Positions 1-30,165 of a stretch of 63,556 nt of DNA are shown one piece after another. Origin of the DNA: a virus. Position 1 is the stretch's first letter, and each line of letters opens with the position of its first letter. A model generated the notes under the pieces. That model saw only the letters and a list, made by a program, of their open reading frames with translations. It made no database searches and was not told the origin of the DNA. The position numbers and the translations under genes are program-made. The stretch is from positions 1 through 63,556 of the IMG/VR virus record IMGVR_UViG_3300010157_000064; one strand, 5' to 3'.

Positions 1-233
1 TTTAATTTGTTTACAATTATTTTTTCACCAAAATGTTTTTCCAAAACTTCTATATGGCTCTTATCTAAAGAATTCAATAGATCTAGCACACTTTTTGATC
101 CAAGGCCACCCAGAACAGATATGGTTTTTCCCAAATGCCACTGATCAAAAAAATGTCTGAACTCCGGAAGAAGTTCTTTTACTTTTTTATCAAAGAAAAT
201 GATTTCTTCAATGTTTTTTAAATTTATTTCCAT
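1..233 (-). CDS. Hypothetical protein, C-terminus outside the window
   Basis: A minus-strand reading frame is open from an ATG at 233 to the window edge, giving at least 77 residues (MEINLKNIEEIIFFDKKVKE...). It is rich in charged and hydrophobic residues, with a central GGLGSKSVLDLL segment and no recognisable catalytic motif. It diverges from the baseplate gene at 284 across a 50-nt spacer. It may be another baseplate or tail gene by position, but that is inference only. I do not recognise the family. Confidence 0.6.
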   Translation of the reverse strand, partial: MEINLKNIEEIIFFDKKVKELLPEFRHFFDQWHLGKTISVLGGLGSKSVLDLLNSLDKSHIEVLEKHFGEKIIVNKL

Positions 234-283: not shown

Positions 284-1282
284 ATGGCCGATGATGTTTT
301 TAGACCACAAATGCCAACAGAAGGATCCGGATTAAATATAAAAGGAAATCCGCCACCCGAATTCCTGAAGATGATGAAAGAAGCTAGAGGAGAAAGCACA
401 GAACCAAAATCGGGTTTTGGGAACATGGCCTCGAACGAAGTTGCTAAGCCTTTCTCCGCTCCTGCGGAGCCAAGAGAAGTTAGTACCGGCCATCTTAAAG
501 AGCTTTTAGATATCATTAAAAGCTCCAACGCTATTTACGAAGAAGTGCAGTTGCCTTCTAAAGGAAAGTTTTATGATGGTACAAATGGTCCTGCCAACGG
601 TGTTGTTTCTATCAGACCCATGACAGGCGAAGAAGAACAGATTTTGGCTACTCCTCGTTTTGTTAAAAGAGGACAAGCTATCAATATGATTTTCGAAAAA
701 TGTATCAAAGAAGGAAAGCAGTTTAGAACTGAAAACTTGTTGACCGTTGATAGAACTTATCTTTTGATATATTTACGAGGAATATCTTATACTCCAAAAT
801 ACGAAGTAGAAATCAAGTGTTCGGAATGCGAATCTAAGTTTTCTCATACCATCGATTTGAGCACAATGCTTGTTGATCAATGTCCTGACGAATACGGACC
901 AAATCTTCAAGATGTATTGCCAACAACAAAGCTTCCATTCTCATACCGACTATCAACAGGCAAAGATGAGCAAGAAATAACAGATCACAGAGAACGTAGA
1001 GTGAAAGCGTTCGGTGATTCAGCCACTGATGATACTCTAACCTTCAGAACTGCTTCTTTGCTACAGGACATTGATGGAATTTCAAATAAAAATGAACTTC
1101 AAATTCTTCTAAAGAATCTGCCTATCAACGATGTTTCTTATATTAGAAATTGTATCAACGAGCCACCTTTTGGAGTAGATACTAATATTTCTATAATTTG
1201 TCCTTCGTGCTATGCAGAGTTCGATATAGATCTACCTCTTGAAGCAAGTTTTTTCTTTCCCAGGCGGAAGAAGGGGCAGTAA
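284..1282 (+). CDS. 26: T4 gp26-like baseplate hub protein
   Basis: The 332-aa product resembles T4 gp26, a baseplate hub assembly protein. Visible hallmarks are the segment VSIRPMTGEEEQIL at about residues 109-122 and two CxxC pairs (CSECES near 179 and CPSCYAEF near 307) that could bind zinc. The start has a good ribosome binding site, AAGGAGAT, 8 nt upstream. The first 60 residues are proline- and glycine-rich and probably disordered. It ends in a basic tail just after a TTTTTTC heptamer; a gp51-like frame continues in -1 from that point, so a longer fused product is likely also made. Downstream is a probable structural protein. Confidence 0.8.
   Translation: MADDVFRPQMPTEGSGLNIKGNPPPEFLKMMKEARGESTEPKSGFGNMASNEVAKPFSAPAEPREVSTGHLKELLDIIKSSNAIYEEVQLPSKGKFYDGTNGPANGVVSIRPMTGEEEQILATPRFVKRGQAINMIFEKCIKEGKQFRTENLLTVDRTYLLIYLRGISYTPKYEVEIKCSECESKFSHTIDLSTMLVDQCPDEYGPNLQDVLPTTKLPFSYRLSTGKDEQEITDHRERRVKAFGDSATDDTLTFRTASLLQDIDGISNKNELQILLKNLPINDVSYIRNCINEPPFGVDTNISIICPSCYAEFDIDLPLEASFFFPRRKKGQ
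1249..1255 (+). promoter_or_regulatory. Candidate -1 ribosomal frameshift site
   Basis: The heptamer TTTTTTC sits in the zero frame as T TTT TTC (AGT codon at 1247-1249, then TTT and TTC), an exact X XXY YYZ slippery site. Slipping -1 here joins the gp26-like gene to the downstream gp51-like frame, which opens only 6 nt before the site (TGA at 1240-1242) and has no usable start codon of its own. I have not verified a stimulatory RNA structure downstream. Confidence 0.7.
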
Positions 1283-1479
1283 ACCCAAGCCTAGAACTAT
1301 GGAAGGGGTTAGCGGATGAAATATTTTTCTTCCAATATCACTTACGTCTGGATCCTGAAAAAACTATGAGATTGCCAATAAATCTTCGAAGATATATGAT
1401 AGAGAAATTTATTGAGCAAAAAGAAAACGAAAACCAAGCAATGGAAAAGTCAAGACGAAAGTCGCAATCTAAGAGGTAA
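1255..1479 (+). CDS. 51: gp51-like extension, probably made by -1 frameshifting
   Basis: In the -1 frame after the slippery site, 74 codons run to TAA at 1477-1479. The sequence resembles T4 gp51 (baseplate hub assembly catalyst): ELWKGLADEIFFFQYHLRLD followed by PEKTMRLPINLRRYMIEKFIEQ. No ATG, GTG or TTG occurs before the internal ATG at about 1371, which would remove the conserved part. Expression therefore most likely depends on -1 frameshifting from the gp26-like gene, giving a fusion of about 398 residues. A sequencing error could also create this arrangement, but the exact slippery heptamer argues against it. Confidence 0.65.
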   Translation, partial: LSQAEEGAVNPSLELWKGLADEIFFFQYHLRLDPEKTMRLPINLRRYMIEKFIEQKENENQAMEKSRRKSQSKR

Positions 1480-1482
1480 AAG

Positions 1483-2223
1483 ATGTCAAAAGAAAGATAT
1501 CAAAACCCCACTGTGGGGGACAGCGTAAATTTAAGGTTGTTTACTTATAACAGCAATAATAGAAGAGATGTTCAAGAAATAGAACAAGTAGAAATCTATA
1601 CGCTGGACCCCACGGAAAGAACCGAGGACAATCCAGAAGGTCTTAGGCTGGTACAAATAATAGATGGATCTTCTGTTGTTAAAGAGGATACTGGTCGATA
1701 TCTTGTAACAATCGATGCCTCTAGTCCTATTTATACAATAGGCGAGTATAAGGATAAGTGGAAAGTAAAGTTTCAAGATAATGATTCTTTTACTGCTACA
1801 ATTGCTAACAACTTTACTCTCTATCCTGATTTGTGGTTTACAACTTCTTTACCACCTGTTTATGATTTTAGTTTTAATTTTAGACCAAATAGAATAAGAA
1901 GAGGTTCTAAGAGATATTTGATTATTCAAGTAGTACCAAATGTGCCAAGAGGCCCAGACTTAGAAAGATATTACGAAAACTTGGCTATAGTCTCAGATTT
2001 AAGAGTATCTATCGAAGTTGACTGTGCAGACTGCGTTCCTGTAGAGCAGGATTTAAGGTTAGTTGTAGATAGACAGATAGTTGATTATAGAGAGAAAATG
2101 TATGCATATTACTTTATCGACACTTCAGAATTAGCGTCAGGAATATACAATGTGTGGTTCGAATTAACGTTTGGAGAAAACACATTCATTTCTGACAAGG
2201 GGGCTTTACAAATACATGATTAA
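1483..2223 (+). CDS. Probable virion structural protein, baseplate-linked
   Basis: The 246-aa product is rich in beta-prone segments and repeated aromatic residues and looks like two or three Ig-like or beta-sandwich modules (for example YFIDTSELASGIYNVWFEL near the C-terminus). A DCADC motif lies near residue 184. It follows the gp26/gp51-like frames by 3 nt with AGAGG just before the ATG, so it is likely co-transcribed with baseplate genes. A structural role is inferred from position and composition. The stop overlaps the ATG of the next gene. Confidence 0.55.
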   Translation: MSKERYQNPTVGDSVNLRLFTYNSNNRRDVQEIEQVEIYTLDPTERTEDNPEGLRLVQIIDGSSVVKEDTGRYLVTIDASSPIYTIGEYKDKWKVKFQDNDSFTATIANNFTLYPDLWFTTSLPPVYDFSFNFRPNRIRRGSKRYLIIQVVPNVPRGPDLERYYENLAIVSDLRVSIEVDCADCVPVEQDLRLVVDRQIVDYREKMYAYYFIDTSELASGIYNVWFELTFGENTFISDKGALQIHD

Positions 2224-3013
2224 AATAGGTTTATATTATCAGTCGGGATATAGATATGTTCCCTGTTTTTATGCTTTAGAGCAATTTAGAAAAGTATATC
2301 CAAATGCACCAATTTCTTTGTATGAAGATAATTCAAACGTACTGTTACCTATAGCTAAAAAGTTTAAATGCGATTATAAAAAAACCATAATTACAGGACG
2401 CAACGGCAATAATAATGGCAGAGAATCTTTTGATTTAAAATCAACAAAAGCTTGGTTTGAAAGAATAAACGAAGCTTGTACTACAGTTTTATCTGAGGCG
2501 GACTGGATCGTTCACTTTGAAGACGATGTTTGGATTAGAAGAGAATTAAGAAGTGAGCCTCCATATGATTTGTCTGGGATTGGTGGGATAGGATGTGATG
2601 TAGGCCTATATGAACACCTACAAACCTCCGTTAGAGGAGCATATGGTTGTGGCGGTTCTATGTTCAATAGAATAAAATTCATAGAAGCATATAAAAAAAT
2701 AAATGAAATTGATTGGGATTTAATGGACAAATTAGCAATAAGTCCAAAGCCATCAGAATGGGCAGATACAGCTATAACAATACTTTTTTTATATTCAAAA
2801 ATGTCTGTTGGTCCATACAACGAACTTGTACAATATAGAAATAGCAAAGCACAAACACTCTTGGACAGAAGAGGTTGGCTTGGATCGATGCAAGAATTAG
2901 AGGAAGAACAAGGAGATGTAGCAATTATACACTGCTGGAAGCCTTACTATTATCCTACAGAAGAAGAAGTAATATATGTTGAAAAAAAATTAGCAAAAAA
3001 AATTTTAAATTAA
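2216..3013 (+). CDS. GT-A-type glycosyltransferase
   Basis: I chose the ATG at 2216 rather than the upstream one at 2171 because AAGGGGGC lies about 10 nt before it and it overlaps the previous stop. The 265-aa product begins MIKIGLYYQSGYRY. It carries WIVHFEDDVWIRRE, where EDD fits the metal- and nucleotide-sugar-binding DxD motif of GT-A enzymes. A later IIHCWKPYYYP segment is histidine-containing. It probably transfers a sugar to a virion or host surface component. Three more glycosyltransferases follow on the opposite strand, ending within 4 nt of this gene's stop. Confidence 0.6.
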   Translation: MIKIGLYYQSGYRYVPCFYALEQFRKVYPNAPISLYEDNSNVLLPIAKKFKCDYKKTIITGRNGNNNGRESFDLKSTKAWFERINEACTTVLSEADWIVHFEDDVWIRRELRSEPPYDLSGIGGIGCDVGLYEHLQTSVRGAYGCGGSMFNRIKFIEAYKKINEIDWDLMDKLAISPKPSEWADTAITILFLYSKMSVGPYNELVQYRNSKAQTLLDRRGWLGSMQELEEEQGDVAIIHCWKPYYYPTEEEVIYVEKKLAKKILN

Positions 3014-3693
3014 AAACATTTTATAATTGGTTTGTTATAATGAGACAACCAAAATTCTTCATTAAAACATACATGTCCCCCTATATCGGAAACACCTCCA
3101 CCTTTTTGTATGACTGCTGCTGGGTATACTAAATATTTATTCTTAAAAGTATTATTTAAATAAATATCTATAACATCAAAGGGTTTATCAAATTTATTTT
3201 CTAATACTTTATCGAAAGATGTGCTGTTAAGGATATATGCTTGAGTGCTAGTGCAACAATCACACTTAATGATGTGGTCCGAATATAGTTTTAGTTCTTT
3301 ATCATGCAAATTTGCTCCAAAATAAAATATATCCCAATTATTTATTTTGGTTAATTCGTTTAATGCTTCTTCGATAATTTGAAGTGCAGTGTAAGTTTCA
3401 TTTTCGTAAAACAAAGCATCATCTTCAAAAATTAAAACATTTTTATATCCTCTATCTTTTGCGATTTGTATTATATTTTTATGTGATAGAGAACAAGCTT
3501 GTCCCAGTAAAAACATTTTATGATTATCATCAACACGATAATCAATAGTATCAAACGCAGAAATTGCTGGGAATCTTTCAACAAACGCATCTAACCCTAG
3601 CCTTTTAAATTGTTCAATCATGAATTCATTTTTATCTTTCCTATGTTCTAAATTTATATAAAACGCACCACTAACAAATTCTTGTATCTTCAT
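3010..3693 (-). CDS. Glycosyltransferase family 25 (LPS-type)
   Basis: The 227-aa protein matches the GT25 / Glyco_transf_25 pattern: an N-terminal YINLEHRKDKNEFM, the diagnostic LGQACSLSHKNIIQIAKD around residue 63, and the acidic LIFEDDALF motif around residue 86. Family members add sugars such as galactose to lipooligosaccharide, or modify collagen in eukaryotes. It is the last gene of a three-gene minus-strand glycosyltransferase run. The acceptor is unknown; host O-antigen change or decoration of virion fibres are both possible. Confidence 0.75.
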   Translation of the reverse strand: MKIQEFVSGAFYINLEHRKDKNEFMIEQFKRLGLDAFVERFPAISAFDTIDYRVDDNHKMFLLGQACSLSHKNIIQIAKDRGYKNVLIFEDDALFYENETYTALQIIEEALNELTKINNWDIFYFGANLHDKELKLYSDHIIKCDCCTSTQAYILNSTSFDKVLENKFDKPFDVIDIYLNNTFKNKYLVYPAAVIQKGGGVSDIGGHVCFNEEFWLSHYNKPIIKCF

Positions 3694-3706
3694 TCGATTC
3701 TTTCTT

Positions 3707-4843
3707 TTAAAATTTATCTAAAAAATTGGTCCACATTGGACCTATATTATTAATGTTAAAATTTTCAAGAATATAAGGGATTCCTTTAGTTCTAATTTCT
3801 TCTTTTAATTCTTGGTTTTCTTCTATCCATTTTATTTTTTCTACAATATTATCAATGGAAGACATATAAGGAGCTGACGTTACTCGTTCCGTCATCATTT
3901 TTTCCATATCGGTTTCTGGTGGAAAATCTAATTTAAAATAATGACCTCCATAGTACTCCTCATGCGAACCTAAAGGATATGAAACAACTATAACCCCCAT
4001 ACCAATAGCTTCAGCCATTGCACAAGAATGTACGTCTTTATAAACGTGACCGTTAGGTGTATACTGTGGGAATATAAAATAATCACTAGTCGCTAATTCA
4101 CTAAATAAAGTTTCCTTATCTATTCCATTACTCAAATCGACATAATCAAATGATTTAAAATTATCACCCCAACCAAGTTTTCTAACAGCATTTAACGCAA
4201 CTTCTCCACCTCTAGACCATTGTGCTGGAAAGATAACTTTTTTATGTTGTCTCTCTAATTTTTTATCTAATATTTCTAACATAACATCTGTGGTCATTGC
4301 GTTGGGTATAATTGAGGTTAATAAATCTGATACATTGTTTCTGAGAAATTCAATATTATCTTTATGATGGCCTTCAGCCCATTTAGATATATTAATATAA
4401 CCCACTTTTAAATTATTTTTAAGTGCGAAATCTTTTAACTCACTTAAATAATAACCCCAAGCTAAATGACACCAATAACATACCGCTTTAGTGATTGTTG
4501 CGTTTAGTTTATCATATTCACCAAACCATAACGAATTAACTAAAACATCAAATTCTGTATTTTTTAAACCATCTAAATTTGGTAGATAAGTATAGGTAAC
4601 ACCATTTACAATGTCTTTACCAGGATTAAAGTTATATCCCCTTTCATTTCTTTGTTTAATTAAATCGTCAGAGGATTTTTCAACGGCAATTACCACATCA
4701 TTACCAGTTTTCGCCAAATATTCAGCAATCAAAATTGATGTGGAGTCTGTTCCTGATAGTCCTGCTTTATTGTATCTCATAGTATCTCCGTTAACGAAGT
4801 TACTTCTTGATCCATTACCGGTTACTGTAAATAATATTCTCAT
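3707..4843 (-). CDS. GT-B-fold glycosyltransferase, GT4-like
   Basis: The 378-aa product starts with a Rossmann-like MRILFTVTGNGSRSN and has the C-terminal donor-binding pattern of GT4 enzymes (SCAMAEAIGMGVIVVSYPLG around residue 280, then SHEEYY). An ATGA overlap with the upstream gene suggests translational coupling. The central CYWCHLAWGYY is unusual and may bind the acceptor. Together with the flanking GT25 and GlcNAc-transferase-like genes it would assemble a short glycan; donor and acceptor cannot be read from the sequence. Confidence 0.65.
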   Translation of the reverse strand: MRILFTVTGNGSRSNFVNGDTMRYNKAGLSGTDSTSILIAEYLAKTGNDVVIAVEKSSDDLIKQRNERGYNFNPGKDIVNGVTYTYLPNLDGLKNTEFDVLVNSLWFGEYDKLNATITKAVCYWCHLAWGYYLSELKDFALKNNLKVGYINISKWAEGHHKDNIEFLRNNVSDLLTSIIPNAMTTDVMLEILDKKLERQHKKVIFPAQWSRGGEVALNAVRKLGWGDNFKSFDYVDLSNGIDKETLFSELATSDYFIFPQYTPNGHVYKDVHSCAMAEAIGMGVIVVSYPLGSHEEYYGGHYFKLDFPPETDMEKMMTERVTSAPYMSSIDNIVEKIKWIEENQELKEEIRTKGIPYILENFNINNIGPMWTNFLDKF

Positions 4844-6081
4844 ATCTTTTTTTCATACCTTTCGCTCCATTGTTTCTCTTTATCAAATAAATACATAACA
4901 ATTTTTTCTGGCTTATCTTGGGAATAAAAATCTGCTAAGTATCTACTGCTTTTCAGCGTGACTAGATCTGGGGATTCTGCTAATGTAAAGTCTTTTCTAA
5001 ATATCTCTTTGCCAGAACTATTATGAATACCAATCGTTAGAAATTCAGGATTGTTAAAATTCGCTTTTTCAAAAAATCCTAAATCCCACTCGCAATTAAT
5101 ATTGTATTTTTGAGAAACAAACTGATTTTCCCAATCTATTGGATTGGGCGGTTCATTAACCTTCAATGTGTAGTCCTGAATTCTACATTTTTTAAAATCA
5201 AAGCCCCCAAAAACTTCGTAATCATGAAGTGTTCTTTTAGTTCCTAGCCCATACTTTGTCATATCTATTTTATGATCTTCTTGCCCAAATAGCTGCCTTG
5301 TTTTGTTGCGAGCAAAAACGTCTCTTTCTCCACTTGTTTTTTTTGTTTTAGAAACAACACCATGATCTTCCCAGTGTTTAGGCCTATTATTTCTAGTGTA
5401 TTCGTGCCAAATATATTGCCGATAAGGACTATAAAAATCATACCCCCAAGTAAAAGCTCTAACACTCAAAGTCGTTTCTTCTGTGTATCCTCCAAAATAA
5501 ATGTCGGGGTCATATGGTACTTCTTCAACAAAACTTCCATCCGCCAAACAAAAGTGAGCACTTATAGTTCTTGCTTTTATAACCTTGGATCTTTGTTTGT
5601 AGTCCATGATGTGATATGGCCTACTCATAAGCAAGCTGTCATAACTAAACTCGTATTGACTCATAAGACATGGTGAAGCTTCATAAACAGTTTGTTCTGG
5701 TTGAAAGGGTGTTAGATATGTTGTTAAAACAGGCTTTTCAGAAAAAGATTTAGACTGATTAAAATCTTCTAACATCATAACATCCCAATTCTCTAGAAAC
5801 CTATGATGACTATCTAATTGCAAAACAAGATCTTCTCCGTTATAAAGATTGTTTGTTATTGCTCTAGCCCATCCTAGACCTTGGCTGTCACTATAATGAT
5901 GTTTGCTTACTCTAAAATTAGAATTTCCATCATACAAGTTGATGTTTTCTGACTCGTCATATTGCCAACAAATACCGAAGACGAATTGGTCGGGATTTTT
6001 TGCTTTTTTCAGCATATCCTCAATTGTTATTGTTAATTGTGGATCTCTATAAGACGCAATTTGAACAAATATTTTACTCAT
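4840..6081 (-). CDS. GlcNAc-transferase-like glycosyltransferase (PF11397 type)
   Basis: The 413-aa protein begins MSKIFVQIASYRDPQLTITI, the hallmark start of the family related to the Dictyostelium Skp1 polypeptide GlcNAc transferase. It also contains LVLQLDSHHRFLENWD (a DxH-type metal motif near residue 93) and a conserved SAHFCLADGSFVEEVPYDPD block. The ATG at 6081 is preceded by CGGAGAAA. It leads the three-gene minus-strand set. Family members put GlcNAc on protein hydroxyls, so glycosylation of a phage or host protein is plausible. The C-terminal 100 residues look like a separate beta-rich module. Confidence 0.7.
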   Translation of the reverse strand: MSKIFVQIASYRDPQLTITIEDMLKKAKNPDQFVFGICWQYDESENINLYDGNSNFRVSKHHYSDSQGLGWARAITNNLYNGEDLVLQLDSHHRFLENWDVMMLEDFNQSKSFSEKPVLTTYLTPFQPEQTVYEASPCLMSQYEFSYDSLLMSRPYHIMDYKQRSKVIKARTISAHFCLADGSFVEEVPYDPDIYFGGYTEETTLSVRAFTWGYDFYSPYRQYIWHEYTRNNRPKHWEDHGVVSKTKKTSGERDVFARNKTRQLFGQEDHKIDMTKYGLGTKRTLHDYEVFGGFDFKKCRIQDYTLKVNEPPNPIDWENQFVSQKYNINCEWDLGFFEKANFNNPEFLTIGIHNSSGKEIFRKDFTLAESPDLVTLKSSRYLADFYSQDKPEKIVMYLFDKEKQWSERYEKKI

Positions 6082-26163: not shown

Positions 26164-26395
26164 ACCAACATTTTTTTGCTTTAATCAAGATATTTTCATC
26201 TAGAACAAACCCACATTTGTCTCCTACTAAACAGTCTGCGAGGCAATGTGGGCATATTCCAGTTTCGTTATTATCTGTATATTCTGTTACTTCTTTGGGA
26301 TCGAATATTTTACAACAATGATAACATCCTACTGAGGAGGATTGTTTTATAATATTCTTATTCTTCATTGATATTTTAGGAAACAAATTGATCAT
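26153..26395 (-). CDS. Small zinc-binding protein
   Basis: The 80-aa product has SVGCYHCCKIFDP and GICPHCLADC, two CxxC pairs in the pattern of a small bacterial cytoplasmic zinc-ribbon family (CYHC...CPHC...D). It overlaps the portal stop as ATGA, so it is translationally coupled to the portal gene. Its role in a head operon is unclear. It may be a regulator or an assembly factor. Confidence 0.6.
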   Translation of the reverse strand: MINLFPKISMKNKNIIKQSSSVGCYHCCKIFDPKEVTEYTDNNETGICPHCLADCLVGDKCGFVLDENILIKAKKCWFNL

Positions 26396-29300
26396 TCATC
26401 ACCTACGCTATAATCTATATCTTCTAGATCTTGTTCTGCTTCATATCCTTGTAGTTCTAGATCGTACTTCTTAATATCTTCTTCAGAAGGATCTTCTAGA
26501 CTAGTTGGTTCGGCAGGTTGTTCACCGGTTTCAGGTGGTGGTTGTTCGCCTGTGGGCTCTTGTGGAGCTTGAGGGCCCTCAAGATTAGCTTGTTCTGCGT
26601 CTTCTGGTTGTGGCATTGCGTTGGGGCCACCTGCTTGTGTTCCTAGTTCTGGATTTGATTGTTCTTGACCTGGAATTCCCACTCCTAGAAGTTGTGGATT
26701 CTGTGCCATTACTTGTAGTTTGAGATCTTCTAGTTTTTGAATTTTCAATCTTGCGAGCATTTCTTCTGTTTCGTTTTCGCCATATTTCAAAATTCTCGTC
26801 ATTATGTCATAATCAGACATAAGAACGCTACTTTTCAATGTTCCTGCATTGCCATATCTTGCTGATGTGACTTCCGCTCTTGATAGTTCTCTCCAGTCGG
26901 ATGGAGGAGTCATCTTTATTTTTAAATCTTGATAAGATTTTTCTGGGAACCCTCGTAGCTGCAAGTGTCTTTCTGCCAGTTCTAATATTCCGTCTTCGAA
27001 GTTGCTTTGCAATCTTTCGATCATTCTTGCGAATTTAACATCTTGTGAGCTTAATGTTATTCTGGTTGAATTGGGGTCTTCGTTATTGAAATAATTTTTA
27101 GGAAAGTTTAATGCTGTTAGTAGTTTGTTTCTGAAATAGATAGCATCATCTATTTCGCCAAGATTTTCTGCCCCTGGTAGTGTTTCTATTCTTGTGTTGC
27201 TATTTGGTCTAGTTGGCAACCAGTAATCTTCATCTTGTGCGGGTGGTTGCCATCTTTCTTCAACTTGATTTGCACCTGGTGTATTTCCTCTATTGCTTGT
27301 TACTTTTCTTTTTCTGAACTGATCTTTAATTCGATCCAAGAATGCTTCTGCTTTAAATGGAGGAAGTTGACCAACGTCAATGTAGAAAACACGCCTCTCA
27401 GGAGCGCGAGTGTTGTGAACGATTATGCCGTTTGCCACAAAATTATGCATTTCGTTATCAACTGTTAAGTCGTAAACTTCTTCTTGTCCTGCATATTCTA
27501 CTGCTATTACATTTTCATATTTTGGAAGCTCTTTATTAGAAACTGTGACCGACCAACATTCGGTTGGTGGCATCTTTCTTCCTTTTTCAATTTCGTGACC
27601 ACCCTTACGCTTTCTGTTAACAATTTTTCCTGAGCAGAGTCCGATTGAGGACCATAGTTCCTTTGTGTCTTCTACAAGGTTTTTATTGCATAATTCTATA
27701 GTCGAGAACCAAGTTCCGGCTTTGGTGCGTCTTTTGCAACCATCAGCATTTGATAGTCCTTCTACAAAAGCTCTTCTTATTTTCTTGGACGCATTAAACA
27801 CCCAGCTTGGGATTCTTTTGTTTTTAACTCCTTTGATATAGCCCATTGACAATAAAATTTTACAAGCAACAGTTGAGTCGACGACATAGTTGCCTAAATT
27901 CTTGTTGTTGCTTCTTTTTTCTCTTTCGAATCTAACTTTGCCGAAATATTTTTCAAGTATATTTTTATAAAATACATTTTGTTTTTCATCTAAGCCTGCA
28001 GAAAAAGTTAATTGGTAGTTATTTTTCCTTATAGATCCATCGCCTATTAAGAAGCCAAATAATTTAGCAAATTCTTCATCTACAAACTTCGGCAGCATTA
28101 TTCTTTCGGAATTTGCTTGTCCTTTATTGGTTGTTACAAGTTTGTTTTTCTCTAAACCAAAAACATCACATATCTTTTTAGCTTGATCAGCAGGCAGGGC
28201 CTTACCTTCGGTATAAAGAAACTGTCTTATTCTATTTATATCTCCGCATTTTCTCATCAATGCAGATTTATTTTTATAAATTGTATTTCTGAAGGCGGTT
28301 CTTTGAGAGACATCAAGTTTGGCCCATGTCTCTCCAAGTATATTTGGTATCTCCGTTTCAGACTCCTCATCTTTAGTTATATTTATGATTTTGTCTTTAC
28401 CAACGATTAAGTCTTGAATATCGACATACTGGATGATTCCTTCTCGATTTACAAGTATGGGGTGCGTAGCAGTTCCTGTTATTTGTACATGTTTGCTACG
28501 AACCGTGTAGACATCTTTCATGCCATTATTTACAAAATTAATCACTTTGGCTCTTAGTGTTTCGCCTATTGAATTATAAGAATAAACAAAATCGTCATTT
28601 TTAATATTCTTGATATACGCATATCCATCTGGAGTTCTGATTCTTGTGTCTCCAACCAAGCAGAGCCTATAAATCACCATTGCATCTTCTAAAAGTCTTA
28701 GATTATGTGCGGGTCCTCTTGCTGGTTCTATTAGTGATTGTCCGTATGGAAAAAATGTTTTTCTATCATCTCCGATTTTGAAATGTATTATTTGATTAGT
28801 AGCAAAACGTATTGCTGTTGTGTGATTTAGTTCTGTATTGTTTAGGTCGTCTACTGGGCCTCTGATTATTGCTTGATAATCTGGTCCTTCTTTTGCTTGT
28901 TGATATTCTATTGTTCTACCTTTGACAGTTTCTATTCTATACATAGTTTCTGGTGGTAGTGGCACTGCTTTGTATATTCCTTCTTTGGGGTTATCTGGAT
29001 TGATTACTGTTTCTACGAAGTGATCTCCCATAATACACAAACTTTTGAACCAGCTCCATCCTGCTCTGTTGAGGTTGAGCATTTTGCGATGTAGCAGTAC
29101 GAACTCTATTTCTTTTTTAATATCTTCGTTGTTAGTTAATACTTTTAATATATTTCCTGTTTCATCTTTTTGACAATTATGAACTATGATGCTATCTGTT
29201 GCGAAGCATGCGTGTTTTTCAACAGACATATCGTACACAGGTTGTTCTTCATCATTGTGATGAATGTTTAATATTGTTCTTTTATCTTCTAGTTTGAATA

Positions 29301-30165
29301 ATTCTTTTGTTTCTTTATGTGTAAATCCTTGTCTGTTCATCCATTTTTCTAGGGTGTGCCAGTCTACATCCATATGTTCTTCTATTTTCACGACAGGAAT
29401 TCCGGCTCCTATCATTTTCATTGCTTTATTTATTGCGGCATTTTTTGGGTCAACTTTTCCGGTCTTCCAATCATCGACAAATTGTCTTTCGTGTATCCAT
29501 CCTTTGTTGAGTGTAAAAATTCTTGGATATTGTTTTTGAGTTAATTTTGTAAGACGAAAATTTGCTGGCTTTCTGTAGAACGGCATAAGCTCATCGTTCA
29601 TTTTTAGTTTTCCAGCTTCGCACCAGCTACCGTCTCTTTTTAATATTCTATGGTCGTGCGTACATGTTATTGTTGATCCGTTATCAAAAACTATTGTTAA
29701 TGTTTTTGCATCTTTTACATATCTGGGTGCGTATGCCCAGCCTAAAGTGTAGTCTCTTTTTTCAAAATCATAACAATATGCGAGGAATCTTTCATCCCCT
29801 TTTGTCTCAACTAATTCTTTTATACTGATTGGTCCGAATGGAGTAGATATTCTTGTATCGCCTGAGACGCATGCTTCGTCTGAGAATACTGTCATTGCCA
29901 TTTCTATTTCTGGGACATTTCTTAATCTTTCGTACTCTTTATATCTCATCGCTCGATTGGTGAGAGTAGTAGTATCGATCATATCTGTAGTTTGTCGGAA
30001 GTTCGACATACCAGAATTTGGCCCGCCGCCAGTAAAATCGACTCCTAGAGCTTCCGGTTGAGCTATACCTGCTCCTTGGAACTGTCTGTAGTCTTTTTGT
30101 TTAGATAATGGGTCTTGCTCACCAGCGTATGTGAACAATTTAAAAAAGTCGCTCCATATAGGCAT
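26392..30165 (-). CDS. 20: Portal protein, T4 gp20-like, interrupted by two inteins
   Basis: The 1257-aa precursor has extein segments at residues 1-98, 331-501 and 919-1257, giving a 608-aa mature portal (T4 gp20 is 524 aa). Signature portal segments include FKIGDDRKTFFPYGQSLIEP, RAPERRVFYIDVGQLPPFKA and LPTRPNSNTRIETLPGAENL. The dodecameric portal forms the DNA channel and starts head assembly. Inteins occupy 99-330 and 502-918. The C-terminal 100 residues are Gln/Pro/Glu-rich. It heads the head operon. Confidence 0.92.
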   Translation of the reverse strand: MPIWSDFFKLFTYAGEQDPLSKQKDYRQFQGAGIAQPEALGVDFTGGGPNSGMSNFRQTTDMIDTTTLTNRAMRYKEYERLRNVPEIEMAMTVFSDEACVSGDTRISTPFGPISIKELVETKGDERFLAYCYDFEKRDYTLGWAYAPRYVKDAKTLTIVFDNGSTITCTHDHRILKRDGSWCEAGKLKMNDELMPFYRKPANFRLTKLTQKQYPRIFTLNKGWIHERQFVDDWKTGKVDPKNAAINKAMKMIGAGIPVVKIEEHMDVDWHTLEKWMNRQGFTHKETKELFKLEDKRTILNIHHNDEEQPVYDMSVEKHACFATDSIIVHNCQKDETGNILKVLTNNEDIKKEIEFVLLHRKMLNLNRAGWSWFKSLCIMGDHFVETVINPDNPKEGIYKAVPLPPETMYRIETVKGRTIEYQQAKEGPDYQAIIRGPVDDLNNTELNHTTAIRFATNQIIHFKIGDDRKTFFPYGQSLIEPARGPAHNLRLLEDAMVIYRLCLVGDTRIRTPDGYAYIKNIKNDDFVYSYNSIGETLRAKVINFVNNGMKDVYTVRSKHVQITGTATHPILVNREGIIQYVDIQDLIVGKDKIINITKDEESETEIPNILGETWAKLDVSQRTAFRNTIYKNKSALMRKCGDINRIRQFLYTEGKALPADQAKKICDVFGLEKNKLVTTNKGQANSERIMLPKFVDEEFAKLFGFLIGDGSIRKNNYQLTFSAGLDEKQNVFYKNILEKYFGKVRFEREKRSNNKNLGNYVVDSTVACKILLSMGYIKGVKNKRIPSWVFNASKKIRRAFVEGLSNADGCKRRTKAGTWFSTIELCNKNLVEDTKELWSSIGLCSGKIVNRKRKGGHEIEKGRKMPPTECWSVTVSNKELPKYENVIAVEYAGQEEVYDLTVDNEMHNFVANGIIVHNTRAPERRVFYIDVGQLPPFKAEAFLDRIKDQFRKRKVTSNRGNTPGANQVEERWQPPAQDEDYWLPTRPNSNTRIETLPGAENLGEIDDAIYFRNKLLTALNFPKNYFNNEDPNSTRITLSSQDVKFARMIERLQSNFEDGILELAERHLQLRGFPEKSYQDLKIKMTPPSDWRELSRAEVTSARYGNAGTLKSSVLMSDYDIMTRILKYGENETEEMLARLKIQKLEDLKLQVMAQNPQLLGVGIPGQEQSNPELGTQAGGPNAMPQPEDAEQANLEGPQAPQEPTGEQPPPETGEQPAEPTSLEDPSEEDIKKYDLELQGYEAEQDLEDIDYSVGDE
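27412..28662 (-). mobile_element. Intein 2 of the portal, with LAGLIDADG endonuclease
   Basis: This 417-aa intein starts at Cys502 (CLVGDTRIRTPDG) and ends NGIIVHN before Thr919. Block B is TGTATHPI. A LAGLIDADG-type homing endonuclease lies between (LFGFLIGDGSIRKNNY and FVEGLSNADGC). Block F is EVYDLTVDNEMHNFVANGII. All splice residues (Cys1, terminal His-Asn, Thr+1) are present, so it should splice, and the endonuclease could drive homing into intein-less portal genes. Confidence 0.93.
29176..29871 (-). mobile_element. Intein 1 of the portal, without recognisable endonuclease
   Basis: This 232-aa intein starts at Cys99 (CVSGDTRISTPFG) and ends DSIIVHN before Cys331. Block B is TCTHDHRIL and block F is QPVYDMSVEKHACFATDSII. 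The central 100 residues (LNKGWIHERQFVDDWKTGKV...) contain no LAGLIDADG or clear HNH motif. It is either a mini-intein with a leftover linker or holds a degenerate or unknown domain. Splice residues are intact. Confidence 0.92.

Follow-up and report, generated by a model that had tools for sequence, protein, structure and literature searches.

A conserved slippery heptamer in a gp26-like gene supports -1 frameshifted expression of a tail assembly chaperone in a large-genome T4-like phage lineage

Introduction

Tail assembly chaperones (TACs) comprise a short product and a long product, the latter being the minority form; they bind the tape measure and tube proteins, and neither is found in the virion. 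The TAC gene usually lies between those for the tail tube and the tape measure, a position that is typical rather than strictly defining. In lambda, gpG coats the tape measure and the extra domain of gpGT recruits tail tube subunits, with the ratio of the two set by slippage (PMC5009743). The same 2016 review described T4 as the exception to the conserved tail chaperone frameshift (PMC5009743).

TAC-N and TAC-NC were subsequently reported in T4-like phages by Vladimirov, Gautam and Davidson (Virology 2022, 566:9-15), a study considered here as two later papers relate it (PMC10885494, PMC12846349). According to the PRFect paper, that study found that some T4-like phages have a short gene and a longer fusion gene with no frameshifting (PMC10885494), and the Adele paper cites it for poly-T -1 sites in the TAC-N genes of T4-like phages (PMC12846349).

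Results

Layout of the locus

The stretch of DNA analyzed, hereafter the window, is a virus record of 63,556 bases that has T4-type head genes. The features of its candidate chaperone locus are:

284..1282, plus strand: putative TAC-N ORF, gp26-like, 332 aa by standard translation (PF12322 T4_baseplate, E 8.9e-18; phrog_150, E 3.9e-20)
1249..1255, plus strand: slippery heptamer T_TTT_TTC in the zero-frame phase (61 of 63 unique relatives; top synonymous constraint in the gene)
1255..1479, plus strand: putative TAC-C, 74 codons of the -1 frame after the slip, plus TAA stop at 1477-1479 (44-row alignment, dN/dS, AF2)
1280..1282, plus strand: zero-frame TAA closing the short form (sequence reading)

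The 3' end of ORF 284-1282 reads GAA GCA AGT TTT TTC TTT CCC AGG CGG AAG AAG GGG CAG TAA, with the heptamer ending eight codons before the zero-frame stop. Overlapping it is the -1 ORF 1243-1479, which is preceded by a TGA at 1240-1242 and has its stop at 1477-1479. The architecture can be read directly from the DNA: the heptamer has the X_XXY_YYZ form of programmed -1 frameshift sites, is in the zero-frame phase and lies 5' of the zero-frame stop, and the two frames overlap with the second having no start of its own, as in TAC genes. In the -1 frame, the earliest ATG, GTG or TTG comes at 1366, some 37 codons beyond the slip and within the conserved domain. Re-reading of the sequence confirmed the coordinates, frames, T TTT TTC position and 74-residue count of an initial annotation of this DNA, as well as its claim that the -1 frame has no start upstream of its conserved part. 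The predicted slip product would have 324 + 74 = 398 residues.

Conservation of the heptamer

In the 8,239 codon positions of the 16 large ORFs of the window, T_TTT_TTC occurred once and canonical A/T-type X_XXY_YYZ heptamers 43 times; the chance expectation of a canonical A/T-type heptamer within the 13-codon overlap was ~0.07. A chance origin of the heptamer is untenable because relatives conserve it. An IMG/VR search identified 80 relatives, and the heptamer was counted in the 63 unique loci that did not run off their contigs. Retention of the heptamer in related phages, a check that the initial annotation had proposed, was evident in 61 of these 63 window-type loci, and the other two had C_TTT_TTC. 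The identical heptamer was also present in 80/80 cyanophage loci examined. Both families thus have, toward the 3' end of the first ORF and in the correct phase, the conserved slippery sequence characteristic of TAC genes.

Codon analysis used a set of 50 loci from which redundancy at 93% protein identity had been removed. The Phe codon pair of the slip site was TTT and then TTC in 50/50 loci, and the codon before it ended in T in 49/50, whereas eight other conserved Phe columns in the same loci mixed TTT and TTC. Synonymous constraint at codons 321-324 was the maximum of the ORF (z 7.5-8.0 versus the rest of the gene). Strong synonymous constraint extended to codon 321 (GCA, 1244-1246), just 5' of the heptamer, which in most relatives is part of a second, overlapping A_AAT_TTT site. 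GCA at codon 321 is also kept in the window, where AGT follows it.

A downstream RNA stimulator is common in programmed -1 ribosomal frameshifting and is not required. None with covariation on both sides was detected in the window family, and the helix predicted in that family pairs the slippery site itself. The S-PM2-type cyanophages have a hairpin ~9 nt 3' of the heptamer (z -4.5 in S-PM2, L018:4876-4966), with apparent compensatory changes in relatives (loci L019-L041); the window family showed no such hairpin.

The -1 frame as a protein

The substitution pattern of the -1 frame indicated that it is under purifying selection. Downstream of the zero-frame stop its mean pN was 0.29 versus a mean pS of 0.91, and its median dN/dS was 0.19 (68 pairs with dS < 2). 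The AF2 model of the C domain had three helices (pLDDT 85). Among the best matches to this domain in the viral fold library (BFVD) were a cyanophage Gp51 and several tail assembly chaperones, none of them with a significant E value. Searches of PHROGs and Pfam with the C domain alone identified no useful family; a match to Tma16 was dismissed as its score (19.2 bits) was below the cut-off of that family (22.7).

The possibility that the C domain is a separate small gp51-like gene, with its own start (ATG 1366) or translated by reinitiation after the stop at 1282, is highly improbable. Annotation starts the S-PM2 "gp51" at an ATG immediately 3' of the gp26 stop, and many cyanophage loci have an ATG at the matching place, but in the cyanophages the conserved region continues 5' of the annotated start as far as the slip site. 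In the window, translation from 1366, the first start, would halve the conserved domain. The position of the first start differs widely among relatives, in most cases falling between a point just ahead of the stop and ~60 nt past it, and neither an own start nor reinitiation explains the synonymous invariance of TTTTTTC. The initial annotation had recognized that an independent gp51 start in relatives would count against it; the window family has no conserved start.

We consider it just as improbable that the long form arises by transcriptional rather than ribosomal slippage. There is a homopolymer run at the junction, and a mixed mechanism would be compatible with the sequence. However, the T run in the window-type and cyanophage families is of six (five in two loci), always C-terminated and never longer, and the codon phase T_TTT_TTC is that required for ribosomal slippage.

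The junction falls within a run of six T, and the initial annotation had therefore raised an indel error, but a sequencing or assembly indel dividing one continuous gene is vanishingly unlikely, as dozens of relatives from different samples exclude it, with the same frame relation in 63 unique loci from many metagenomes and in sequenced isolates (e.g., cyanophage S-PM2 and Atu_ph07). Both the indel and the independent start were rejected because the -1 frame evolves as a protein, the heptamer is conserved and the start position is not. The conserved heptamer and the selection on the -1 frame gave good support to the programmed -1 frameshift that the initial annotation had assigned to the gp26-like gene.

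Relationship to T4 gp26 and gp51

The zero-frame product falls in PF12322 and phrog_150, the families of T4 gp26, and its PF12322 score of 65.2 bits (cut-off 24.5) places it with the T4-like TACs. The matches of T4 gp26 and gp51 to PF12322 each span the length of that family (8.8e-64 and 3.9e-52, respectively), and beyond it only gp51 continues, by a C-terminal region. These profile matches indicate that gp26 and gp51 are paralogs, with gp51 consisting of the whole gp26-type domain and an extra C-terminal domain. As the initial annotation stated, T4 genes 26 and 51 are separate: they are on opposite strands, divergently transcribed, and involve no frameshift.

A profile search identified two PF12322 genes in T4 and one in each of twelve other records, and the frameshifting records examined carry one such gene versus two in T4. 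No PF12322 gene was identified in Mel-JY01 at the limit used, its member being too diverged for the Pfam model. Since T4 has two PF12322 genes, with gp51 spanning both domains, gp26 and gp51 are interpreted as the short and long forms encoded by separate genes, both of which the window would produce from one gene. By the same comparison, the long product of the window is the counterpart of T4 gp51 itself and not of gp26 joined to gp51. The joining of gp26-like and gp51-like proteins in the initial annotation was consequently correct as to there being one frameshifted product, but not as to its being a fusion, since gp51 already holds a complete gp26-type PF12322 domain.

Direct comparisons with T4 were less informative. 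BLASTP of the C domain or the N domain against T4 gp51 and gp26 gave nothing significant, and HHalign of the window C domain alone against the gp51 C-terminus was not significant (E 0.88). HHalign matched almost the entire window-type fusion to the cyanophage fusion (E 1.7e-9). The cyanophage fusion in turn aligned with T4 gp51 over the full length (E 2e-18), and the cyanophage C domain aligned with the C-terminus of gp51 (E 1.3e-8), while gp26 aligned only to the N part. The "gp51-like" label given to the 74-residue part was therefore not apparent from direct BLAST or HHalign against T4 gp51 and held only through the cyanophage intermediates. A mixed-clade alignment was dropped as a search query as it was too diverged. 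Searching the PDB for folds similar to the N model gave no significant match; ranked fifth and seventh were two tail-assembly-type structures, 2ob9 (the HK97 tail assembly chaperone) and YqbN 3klu. In one T4-like isolate the gp51 homologue (locus L188, 3001-3746) has a frame break, the ORF stopping after 120 aa, which may reflect either a sequencing error or a genuine disruption.

One of the closest known counterparts of the window locus was gp26/gp51 of S-PM2 (Kyanoviridae), which shares T_TTT_TTC, the overlapping -1 C-terminal domain and alignment of the fusion. The S-PM2 gp26 gene ends TCT TTT TTC GCA TAA, and its annotated 57-residue "gp51" is the end of the overlapping -1 frame. In the cyanophages the heptamer is one codon before the stop (all 80 loci), versus eight in the window, a tape-measure-sized ORF is directly 3' of the gene (the next ORF in S-PM2), and some loci have the downstream hairpin.

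Gene neighborhood

The gene is just 5' of a tape-measure gene or tape-measure-sized ORF in S-PM2, SP-15, LIS04, immuto and Mel-JY01. The order tail tube, TAC, tape measure was found in SP-15, LIS04, immuto and Mel-JY01, and in S-PM2 for the downstream ORF. No tape measure was recognized beside the gene in the window or in its large-genome relatives. The window gene is flanked by ORFs for proteins of unknown function at 3-233 (minus strand) and 1483-2223 (plus strand), which are conserved neighbors in 76/81 and 80/81 related loci, respectively. Directly 3' of the cassette is a cluster of glycosyltransferase-like ORFs (2219-6081), the first two of which (2219-3013 and 3010-3693) were not found in related loci. 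Elsewhere in the window, the portal protein ORF (26392-30165, minus strand, 1,257 aa) is interrupted by segments that, judged by their matches to helicase- and terminase-family profiles, are probably two inteins.

A sister clade with a net +1 frame

Starting from Microcystis phage Mel-JY01 and the 484-kb record LR756508, we reached a sister clade of PF12322-type chaperones whose start-less C domain is in a net +1 frame (73/77 unique loci). Most of these loci have [TC]TT TTT TGG CCT, or a close variant, 5' of the stop. This pattern is consistent with a +1 slip on TTT_T while TGG occupies the A site. The TTC TTT TGG variants favor +1 over -2, because a -2 slip there would mispair.

Discussion

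Based on these data, we propose that -1 ribosomal frameshifting produces the tail assembly chaperone of the window phage as TAC-N (332 aa) and TAC-NC (398 aa), in the manner of lambda gpG/gpGT, a reading to which we assign a probability of roughly 0.93. Standard translation of 284-1282 would yield the abundant short form. At T_TTT_TTC (1249-1255) a minority of ribosomes would slip one base back, with both Phe tRNAs re-pairing on TTT TTT. The slipped ribosomes would pass the TAA at 1280 and append the 74-residue helical C-terminal domain. The slippage, its rate and the chaperone role in this phage are inferred. By analogy with lambda, TAC-N would coat the tape measure protein and tail tube subunits would be recruited by the C-terminal domain of TAC-NC, with the slip frequency setting how much of each form is made. 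The likeness drawn to gpG/gpGT is one of mechanism. T4 would obtain the same two products from its paralogous genes 26 (short) and 51 (long).

The tail assembly chaperone link made in the initial annotation is well supported. Its connection of genes 26 and 51 to this strategy had been published before (Vladimirov et al. 2022). As related in the two later papers, the TACs of that study have a poly-T -1 slippery site in several groups of T4-like phages and separate short and long genes in others; relative to these, the lineage of the window is one of large genomes (532,729 and 595,163 bases in relatives), and its gene has no recognizable tape measure neighbor. The frameshift strategy is in essence published, and the window adds a further lineage. 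T4 genes 26 and 51 are reportedly named in the abstract of the 2022 study.

This reading would settle what is encoded by a gene that annotations of giant T4-like phages usually call baseplate hub, together with a hypothetical ORF, and it extends the frameshifted tail chaperones by a well-sampled lineage. In addition, what is annotated as "gp51" in cyanophages is probably the end portion of a frameshift product. The T4 exception of the 2016 review (PMC5009743) is explained by a short and a long gene replacing slippage, an explanation since published and independently reproduced here. We tentatively suggest that there may be three routes to the long form among homologous T4-like chaperones, namely -1 slippage at T_TTT_TTC in the window phage and cyanophages, +1 slippage at TTT_TGG in the large sister clade and, in T4, duplication to give genes 26 and 51; the duplication route is published and the +1 route may be new. 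If this suggestion is correct, the three routes would form a natural series for how frameshift signals switch direction or yield to gene duplication.
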